Origin: Bacteroidota bacterium
GTDB taxonomy: Bacteria; Bacteroidota; Bacteroidia; Palsa-965
Direction: 5' to 3'
Length of the DNA stretch: 51,615 nt
Assembly: GCA_013298545.1 (NCBI GenBank)
Contig: JAAFIA010000024.1
Span: 861 to 52,475, forward strand
The notes beneath the pieces are model-generated. The model was not told the origin of the DNA and ran no database searches. It was given only the letters and a program-made list of their open reading frames with translations. Positions 39,223 through 40,937 of this stretch are shown in pieces (the first letter of the stretch is position 1; each line of letters opens with the position of its first letter). Position numbers and translations under genes: made by a program.

Positions 39223-39810
39223 ATGATTCCTGCATTGGATGAAAATTATTGGAACAACCGGTATGCGAGCGATGATGCGCGTTGGGATGTGGGCGATATT
39301 ACGAGACCATTGAAAGCGTATATCGATCAGTTGACGAATAAAGAGATGCGTATTTTAATTCCGGGTTGTGGTAATGCTTGGGAGGCTGAGTATTTGTGGC
39401 GGCAGGGATTTCGGAATGTGTTTGTGATTGATATTGCGCCATTGGCGGTGGAGCAATTTAAGAAGCGACTACCTGATTTTCCATCGGAGCAAATTTTTTG
39501 TGAAGATTTTTTCACCCACACAGCGCAGTATGATTTGATTTTAGAGCAAACCTTTTTTTGTGCGTTGAATCCGTCTTTGCGGGAGGCTTATGCGTTGCAG
39601 ATGTCGAATTTGTTGGTGCGTGGTGGCCGTTTGGTAGGCTTATTATTTACCGATTTTTTGAATGTTGATAAACCGCCATTTGGTGGTACGGTAGAGGAAT
39701 ATGAAGGGTATTTTAAAAAAGCGTTTAGGTTTCATGCGTGGGCGCGCGCCTACAATTCGATTGATTCGCGCGCGGGGCGTGAGTGGTTTTTGAATTTGAG
39801 AAAAGTGTAA
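39223..39810 (+). CDS. Thiopurine methyltransferase-like (TPMT family) SAM enzyme
   Basis: The 195-residue protein has the TPMT layout: YWNNRYASDDARWDVG at the start, MRILIPGCGNAWEAEYLW as SAM motif I, VFVIDIAPLAVEQFKK, and LRKV at the end. TPMT-family proteins methylate thiols, selenols or other small molecules. It is the last gene of the tight operon (eight-base gap before it). Whether it belongs functionally to the polymer pathway is unclear. The YhcG leader palindrome begins three bases after its stop codon. Confidence 0.88.
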   Translation: MIPALDENYWNNRYASDDARWDVGDITRPLKAYIDQLTNKEMRILIPGCGNAWEAEYLWRQGFRNVFVIDIAPLAVEQFKKRLPDFPSEQIFCEDFFTHTAQYDLILEQTFFCALNPSLREAYALQMSNLLVRGGRLVGLLFTDFLNVDKPPFGGTVEEYEGYFKKAFRFHAWARAYNSIDSRAGREWFLNLRKV

Positions 39811-39812
39811 AA

Positions 39813-39844
39813 TCAATTTGTGCCACAGGCTGTGGCACAAATTC
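39813..39844. repeat. 32-base repeat with 13-bp palindrome arms, leader copy
   Basis: Identical to 40148-40179. The arms AATTTGTGCCACA (39815-39827) and TGTGGCACAAATT (39831-39843) are perfect inverted repeats around GGC. It lies just before the yhcG start codon, so it could be an operator, a terminator of the upstream operon, or an inserted palindromic element. Confidence 0.85.
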
Positions 39845-39857
39845 AAAATTTGATACA

Positions 39858-40937
39858 ATGAGCAAGATGAATTTAGGAAAAACATATAAGGCATGGCTTA
39901 AAACGATTAAGCAAAAAATAAAAGCGGCCCAATACAAAGCAGCAATGAGCGTGAATGCGCAGCTGATGGAATTGTATTGGGATTTGGGAAAAGACCTTGT
40001 TAAAAAACAAAATGAAGCCAATTGGGGCGATGCTGTTTTAGAACAATTAGCATTTGATTTGCGGTTGAGTTTCCCTGAAATTACAGGGTTTTCAAGAAGG
40101 AATTTGTATGCGATTCGGCAATGGTATTTATTTTATAGTGCCGAAAGTCAATTTGTGCCACAGGCTGTGGCACAAATTCCGTGGGGGCATAATCGGTTGA
40201 TTATTTCAAAAATTAAAAACACAAAAGAGGCACTTTTTTATTGCAACGCAACTGTACAGAATGGTTGGAATCGAGAGCAGTTGGAATTGCAAATCGATAA
40301 TCGGTATTACCAATCAAAAGGGAAATCGATTACTAATTTTAAAGCTACATTGCCTGAATTGCAATCGGCACTAGCAATAGAGACGTTAAAGAACCCTTAC
40401 AATTTCGATTTTCTGGGTTTAGAAAATGATGCGCTGGAATTGGAGATAGAACATGCCATGATGAATCACATTGCAAAATTCCTGATTGAATTAGGCAAAG
40501 GTTTTGCATTTGTTGGACGGCAATATCAGTTGGTGATTAGCGATACGGAATATTATGTTGATTTACTTTTTTACCATTTGCATTTGCGCAGTTTTGTGGT
40601 TGTTGAACTCAAGTCGGGGAAATTCAAACCTGAATATGCAGGCAAACTCAATTTTTATCTATCGGCTATTGATGCGCAAATAAAACAGCCACAAGACAAT
40701 CCAAGTATTGGATTGATTCTATGTCGCCACAAAGACAAAATTGAAGCGGAGTATTCGTTGAAAGACATTAAGAAACCTATTGGAATAAGTGAGTATAAAT
40801 TGACACAGGCATTGCCAAAGAATTATAAAAGTCAACTTCCAACCATTGCACAGATTGAAACTCAGTTGGAATACAAAGAAAAAAAACAAGGTAAATCTGT
40901 TCGGAAAGTGATTGGTAAGCAGAAAAAGAGCAAGTAA
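39858..40937 (+). CDS. YhcG / DUF1016-family PD-(D/E)xK nuclease
   Basis: The 359-residue protein has an N-terminal helical domain (TYKAWLKTIKQKIKAAQYKA, LMELYWDLGKDLV, FSRRNLYAIRQWYLFYS). The family's conserved stretch FVPQAVAQIPWGHN (about 99-112) follows. The C-terminal nuclease core has YVDLLFYH with Asp235 and VVVELKSGKF with Glu250-x-Lys252. Family proteins are predicted nucleases often found in accessory or defence islands. The 32-base palindromic repeat upstream recurs inside this gene and encodes the QFVPQAVAQ stretch. Codon usage is A/T-rich compared with the EPS genes. I chose the ATG at 39858 (MSKMNLGK); an open frame extends upstream through the leader palindrome, but no family start lies there. 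Confidence 0.88.
   Translation: MSKMNLGKTYKAWLKTIKQKIKAAQYKAAMSVNAQLMELYWDLGKDLVKKQNEANWGDAVLEQLAFDLRLSFPEITGFSRRNLYAIRQWYLFYSAESQFVPQAVAQIPWGHNRLIISKIKNTKEALFYCNATVQNGWNREQLELQIDNRYYQSKGKSITNFKATLPELQSALAIETLKNPYNFDFLGLENDALELEIEHAMMNHIAKFLIELGKGFAFVGRQYQLVISDTEYYVDLLFYHLHLRSFVVVELKSGKFKPEYAGKLNFYLSAIDAQIKQPQDNPSIGLILCRHKDKIEAEYSLKDIKKPIGISEYKLTQALPKNYKSQLPTIAQIETQLEYKEKKQGKSVRKVIGKQKKSK
40148..40179. repeat. 32-base palindromic repeat, copy inside yhcG
   Basis: A base-for-base copy of 39813-39844, here translated in frame as part of SQFVPQAVAQI (about residues 97-107). The same sequence is non-coding upstream and coding here, which suggests either an operator-like duplicate or a mobile palindrome. 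Confidence 0.85.

Follow-up and report, generated by a model that had tools for sequence, protein, structure and literature searches.

Palindromes embedded in yhcG (DUF1016) genes are probably binding sites of the YhcG proteins that these genes encode

Most of the YhcG/DUF1016 genes that we examined carry a palindrome within the codons of their DNA-binding domain, and this palindrome is probably YhcG's own sequence-specific binding site, most likely for autogenous control. Judging from residue-by-base coevolution and a modelled fold, each YhcG very probably recognises the palindrome written into its own gene. The computations establish the palindromes, their confinement to yhcG loci in the genomes searched, their covariation with the protein at the level of DNA and the predicted fold. 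This large family of nucleases is almost unstudied, with only passing mentions found in the literature, and a full-text literature search on DUF1016, with subscription papers outside its coverage, returned no account of palindromes or of a ParB-like domain.

The 32-base sequence TCAATTTGTGCCACAGGCTGTGGCACAAATTC occurs twice in the window, the whole 51,615-nucleotide stretch of DNA that was analysed, at 39813-39844 and 40148-40179. As the initial annotation had reported, the two copies are spaced by 335 bp and identical at all 32 bases, and the symmetry that it described as 13-bp arms around GGC is the same as 14 perfect pairs around a single G, with centres at 39829 (39815-39843) and 40164 (40150-40178). 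Palindromes of such symmetry were absent from the dinucleotide-shuffled window. The upstream copy is non-coding, as had been claimed: the preceding gene ends at 39810, before this copy, and yhcG probably starts after it, at ATG 39858 or ATG 39867. The intragenic copy codes for Q-F-V-P-Q-A-V-A-Q-I, directly ahead of PWGH; its centre is 18 bp 5′ of the codon for Trp109, as in most homologues, and Trp109 sits in the motif (I/L)(P/S/T)W(G/S/T)H. The features of the locus are as follows.

39223-39810, plus strand: upstream gene, methyltransferase-like by our own reading; its stop codon is 4 bp ahead of the leader palindrome
39815-39843, no strand: leader palindrome, putative leader operator; 14 pairs around G39829, within the 32-bp repeat 39813-39844; 14 bp ahead of ATG 39858; identical to the intragenic copy, with comparable leader copies at other loci
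39858-40937, plus strand: yhcG homologue, DUF1016_N plus PD-(D/E)XK (Pfam PF17761, PF06250); 359 aa from ATG 39858, ATG 39867 also being possible
39906-40313, plus strand: DUF1016_N domain, residues 17-152, with a predicted ParB/Noc-like DNA-binding fold (AlphaFold pLDDT 90.7 over residues 1-161; structural matches)
40095-40139, plus strand: predicted recognition helix alpha-4, residues 80-94; residue 81 (40098-40100) covaries with bases ±7 and residue 85 (40110-40112) with bases ±5-6
40150-40178, no strand: intragenic palindrome, 14 pairs around G40164, within the 32-bp repeat 40148-40179
40182-40211, plus strand: helix alpha-6, residues 109-118 (WGHNR...); residue 110 covaries with bases ±3 and residue 113 with ±4; ParB GHAR register assigned by eye
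40272-40298, plus strand: helix alpha-8, residues 139-147; residue 139 covaries with bases ±3 and residue 140 with ±2
40380-40841, plus strand: YhcG_C PD-(D/E)XK nuclease domain, residues 175-328, with D235 and E250-L-K252 (Pfam PF06250, E 5.7e-64)

The window protein scored well above the Pfam cut-offs for both DUF1016_N (138.7 bits, cut-off 32.8) and YhcG_C (215.1 bits, cut-off 32.5). Its catalytic residues, D235 and E250-L-K252, are present and form the PD-(D/E)XK motif as given for this family (PMC1189080), with D235 and K252 invariant in the family alignment. The family is widespread in bacteria, with members in 151 of 395 Bacteroidia genomes and in 4420 of 5426 E. coli genomes, and it is also represented on numerous plasmids and in records of phages or prophages. 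Upstream of the window gene, positions 39788-39818 hold a possible Bacteroidota-type promoter, consisting of TTG, about 20 bp and TCAATTTG (1 base off TAnnTTTG), which overlaps the left arm of the leader palindrome and may be there by chance.

The palindrome is a family-wide trait. We assembled 242 YhcG/DUF1016 loci from Bacteroidia genomes, phylum-wide genomes and viral contigs, covering many bacterial phyla and one archaeon. At 199 of these, at least 9 of 11 pairs were complementary at the codon-phase centre upstream of the Trp codon, compared with 8 and 2 loci in two shifted phases and 4 in a control region; the remaining 43 were without a clear palindrome under this test. Among odd-length palindromes in this stretch of the gene, 181 of 182 were centred on codon position 1. 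The sequence of the palindrome differs between related DUF1016 genes at the equivalent position, and the peptide encoded there varies as a consequence. QFVPQAVAQ, which the initial annotation had called a conserved stretch, is indeed encoded by the intragenic copy, but it is one of many peptides at this site and is not itself conserved. Among 27 pairs of paralogues from the same genome, none shared a half-site, where chance predicts fewer than one.

Synonymous-codon resampling gave an expectation of 5.24 of 13 pairs, against 9.59 observed, and 67 of 115 genes lay above all 400 of their resamples, indicating that the encoded protein does not account for the palindrome. In comparisons of related proteins, 110 pair positions had changed, 57 of them on both arms with pairing preserved, and some of these double changes occur between relatives whose downstream protein is 94-97% identical. 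Long, near-perfect arms with compensatory changes would also be left by selection for an mRNA (or DNA) hairpin or cruciform in which arm pairing itself matters, and palindromes can fold. This explanation is nevertheless highly improbable, since the mismatches show no wobble-type excess (50 G.T vs 62 A.C) and the bases of the palindrome are predicted by residues of YhcG. The pairing profile also speaks against it: complementarity is retained at pairs 2-8, is poorest at the central pair and declines from pair 9 outward, which looks like a symmetric protein footprint rather than a hairpin stem. A related candidate, structure-only recognition of a cruciform, had been prompted by the Holliday-junction-resolvase-like nuclease domain of YhcG (PMC1189080) and was dropped given the residue-base code described below.

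Covariation between protein residues and palindrome bases was ranked across 149 aligned proteins, counting residues outside the palindrome-encoded stretch. Residues 81, 110, 139 and 85 ranked highest and 113 and 140 next, and all six lie where helices alpha-4, alpha-6 and alpha-8 begin. At position +7, all 70 proteins with R81 have C and 30 of the 31 with K81 have G. T occupies +5 in 57 of 60 cases with Y85, and G occupies +2 in all 77 with R140; at +3, G is present in 58 of 67 cases with R or K139 and in all 34 with G110. The window protein follows the same code (R81 with C+7, A85 with G+5, G110 and R139 with G+3). Over 66 independent sister pairs, co-change was significant for residue 85 with position 6 (p = 3e-7), residue 110 with position 3 (4e-7) and residue 81 with position 7 (4e-6), and all three survive correction for 2392 tests. 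The rules also held at 48 held-out loci in which the palindrome lies elsewhere in the gene (R81-C 21/21, R139-G 27/27, R85-G 11/11, G110-G 18/18).

Where position -7 is the wobble base of a Val GTN codon, it was G with R81 in 44 of 44 cases and C with K81 in 22 of 23, a statistic reached by none of 1000 shuffles; control residues showed some association too, weaker and through shared ancestry. Because the code holds at synonymous wobble positions, it acts on DNA. Together with the synonymous-codon null, this confirms an earlier suggestion that identity at the DNA level exceeds what protein constraint needs. The palindrome-encoded peptide does lie between alpha-4 and alpha-6 in the model, so that residues 98-107 might coevolve with residues 81, 85, 110, 139 and 140 inside the protein, the DNA being a mere reflection of packing. 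We consider this extremely unlikely, given that the base rules hold at four-fold degenerate wobble positions, which protein packing cannot produce and DNA recognition can, and that they hold where the palindrome is elsewhere in the gene and in untranslated own-core flank copies. From the residue-base coevolution and the predicted fold, we infer that YhcG physically binds its own palindrome.

AlphaFold models of the window protein contain a confident N-terminal helical domain. The best twelve structural matches of this domain were all ParB, Noc or Spo0J (Z 7.3-9.2, the next and unrelated match at 5.9), some of them solved with their palindromic sites; a Z of about 9, here obtained from a predicted model, is modest for a helical domain. 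The HTH_ParB profile matched 6 of 45 family members (best E 1.1e-4), and Foldseek gave no match at E 0.001 or better. From these models, the N-terminal domain of YhcG is predicted to have the ParB/Noc DNA-binding fold. A solved YhcG structure was looked for and none was found.

Genome searches placed the palindromes at yhcG loci. A third copy of the window palindrome was absent from the 4.53-Mb genome in a search allowing up to 3 mismatches, so that where many random copies across the genome would have spoken against a link to this gene family, there were only two, both at yhcG. One frequent core, CCAGACANTGTCTGG, had 15 sites in the 395 Bacteroidia genomes, 12 of them in yhcG genes or remnants and the other three being an intrinsic terminator (locus L143) and two chance coding matches (L139, L152); its reversed control pattern had no sites in the same genomes. 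In a second genus, 8 of 8 matches to another core were at yhcG, whether in a gene, in its leader or at a decayed locus. A dispersed REP/RAYT-like element was rejected on these searches, and a phage-derived palindrome was rejected since the window palindrome had no exact match in IMG/VR.

Tandem and leader copies do exist, and template switching can perfect palindromes, which might favour either a REP-like or Rickettsia-type selfish palindrome spreading between loci or a passive template-switching product at quasi-palindromes. Both ideas have very little probability in our view, because copies are confined to yhcG loci, 181 of 182 centres fall on codon position 1, and neither idea predicts the match to DNA-binding residues. 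Of the two interpretations offered by the initial annotation, a binding site for YhcG is favoured by covariation, held-out loci, the wobble test and the predicted fold; the evidence does not support the other, in which a palindromic element was copied into the gene family.

A different possibility is that YhcG reads the palindrome but has foreign DNA, such as phages and plasmids with matching sites, as its main target, its own copy being regulatory or the address tag of a defence nuclease. YhcG matched the PADLOC profile of phage-defence candidate PDC-S02 (E 1.1e-142), which is a candidate label only; the gene is carried by many plasmids and also turns up in phage or prophage records, and its alleles diversify fast. 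Against this stand the missing exact IMG/VR match for the window palindrome, the restriction of sites to yhcG loci in the genomes searched, and the consideration that a nuclease of such specificity would meet its own gene too, and we regard a mainly foreign target as quite unlikely.

In E. coli, reader and site differ together as a cassette, as judged by comparison of alleles. The yhcG gene of K-12 has three palindromes within the gene and one just past its stop codon. K-12 and ECE204 are 87-100% identical along yhcG and only 47-67% identical at nucleotides 240-420, a block of about 180 bp that holds the recognition helix (with K81 or R81) and the palindromes. The base at ±7 of palindrome 1 matches residue 81 in both strains; as an exception, copies 2 and 3 and the downstream copy of K-12 carry C at +7, a misfit to K81, so that only the first of the four fits. 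The palindromes undergo tandem duplication.

The downstream palindrome lies 16 bp past the yhcG stop codon, between the convergent yhcG and nanQ genes (L124:8971-8995, with equivalents at L125-L131 and L135-L137). It has two forms, TGCAGACAnTGTCTGCA and TCCAGACACTGTCTGGA, that differ on both arms, and it is found in most E. coli alleles examined; one strain has a copy downstream of gltD. Alleles without palindromes 2 and 3 occur in E. coli 2003-3014, O157:H7 611 and O111:H8 (L125, L126 and L129, at about 1330-1345), the deletion being an in-frame 78 bp in O157 and a frameshifting 80 bp in the other two. In strains FDAARGOS_401 and C43(DE3) (L132 1906 and L133 1906), yhcG ends exactly at the end of the third palindrome and the remainder is lost; the element that follows encodes a 101-aa 'transposase' (WP_000639208) without a Pfam match. 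An IS1-linked truncation lies close to palindrome 3. In strain 23CRST013 (L134, 1-2087), only a short remnant of yhcG is left at the locus near nanQ, together with a DUF5682/VWA gene pair, as if the locus were a hotspot for swapping defence-like genes.

These alleles bear on whether YhcG binds and nicks or cuts its own palindrome, such that the self-target drives recombination, exchange or loss of the cassette, or limits the dose of YhcG through gene damage. The nuclease motif is retained, the E. coli alleles differ as a block, palindromes are duplicated in tandem, and several rearrangements end in the palindrome cluster, namely the 78-bp and 80-bp deletions, the insertion at the end of palindrome 3 and the IS1-linked truncation. 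The positions of these deletion and insertion ends are suggestive, but they are also expected of unstable repeats, since tandem repeats and palindromes are unstable even without a dedicated nuclease, and few events were examined. Intact genes, moreover, commonly hold near-perfect palindromes, which is not expected under frequent self-cutting, and on balance we find self-cutting unlikely.

The reading that we prefer, YhcG binding to its own site, can be set out as a mechanism. We infer that the ParB/Noc-like N-terminal domain acts as a dimer that reads the two half-sites of the palindrome and contacts bases at about ±2 to ±9 through residues at the N-terminal ends of alpha-4, alpha-6 and alpha-8. 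The site lies in the codons between the recognition helix and alpha-6, and with this placement reader and site would be inherited and recombined as one short cassette. Bound at the intragenic site, YhcG may then keep its own gene from being transcribed, and the identical leader site 14 bp ahead of the start codon may serve as a second operator in this genome. Autorepression is argued by the position of the site alone, and it is less certain than the dimer and the base contacts, as is the way in which the nuclease domain might avoid or use cutting at its own site.

Leader or downstream palindromes resembling a gene's own core were found at 12 of 199 loci, compared with 0-3 when the cores of other loci were used, and six of the copies are 24-58 bp ahead of the likely start codon, as in the window. 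Conservation in homologous leaders, the absence of which had earlier been named as refuting, holds at few loci, and it is the intragenic copy that is conserved. Since most genes are without a leader copy, autogenous control would have to act from within the gene. Two relatives (L039, L052) carry leader arrays upstream of yhcG with 47-bp spacing and cores that vary between copies and between relatives. At L035, palindromes in the leader and at 250 and 298 bp past the stop codon mostly have the core GCGAACGCA/GCGTCCGCA, the gene's own being TCTCCGCA, and these may belong with a neighbour since lost or with a YhcG of different specificity.

Autoregulation by itself would not require the site to diversify so quickly. 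More speculatively, YhcG genes could be self-addressed nuclease cassettes, in which reader and site are swapped together and the nuclease acts at that site, whether in its own gene, in rival alleles or in incoming elements, so that the palindrome would be operator, address and target at once; we hold this reading to be possible yet doubtful.

With these results, the YhcG family can be given a predicted DNA-binding fold and a probable cognate site, along with a recognition code that relates residues to bases. The site is embedded, across phyla, in the codons of the domain that would read it, which keeps reader and site together in horizontal transfer, and thousands of natural protein-site pairs become available for study of how DNA-binding specificity evolves. 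The role of YhcG, including that in E. coli K-12, becomes directly testable with short DNA probes.

Several known systems resemble parts of this arrangement. In Type I restriction systems, the specificity region of HsdS is exchanged as a block, and YhcG is similar in that its specificity region is swapped as a block in E. coli with the rest of the gene near identical; unlike in HsdS, reader and cognate site both lie in the swapped block. Autogenously regulated DNA-binding proteins and self-repressing homing endonucleases such as I-TevI, which reportedly represses its own promoter, likewise have a site at their own gene; the YhcG site, by contrast, falls within the codons of the DNA-binding domain, is family-wide and coevolves with that domain. 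Rickettsia palindromic elements are dispersed in many genes. Like these elements and the palindromes of Nematomorpha mitochondria, which are repeats of up to 284 bp in several genes (PMC6649704), YhcG palindromes lie inside reading frames; unlike them, the palindrome is a single short site in each yhcG gene and is linked to the reading residues of the protein.

A further close parallel is with ParB, Noc and Spo0J and their parS or NBS sites, which YhcG resembles in the predicted fold of its DNA-binding domain and in having a palindromic site. In ParB, alpha-4 enters the major groove at parS and alpha-6 and alpha-8 add contacts (PMC7383237), and the base-covarying residues of YhcG likewise fall at the N-ends of these three helices. 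Specificity residues of ParB include 173 and 201, and R204 contacts parS (PMC7383237); in a motif register set by eye, G110-H-N-R113 of YhcG aligns with G201-H-A-R204 of ParB, such that G110 and R113 match the specificity residue G201 and R204. The two families differ in that YhcG carries a PD-(D/E)XK nuclease domain in place of the ParB CTPase domain: the window protein begins with its DNA-binding part, and the N-terminal ParB CTPase family was absent among the Pfam matches of the window protein and family members. Unlike parS and NBS, the YhcG site occurs only within or beside its own gene and differs in nearly every gene, and its palindrome is of odd length, with one central base.
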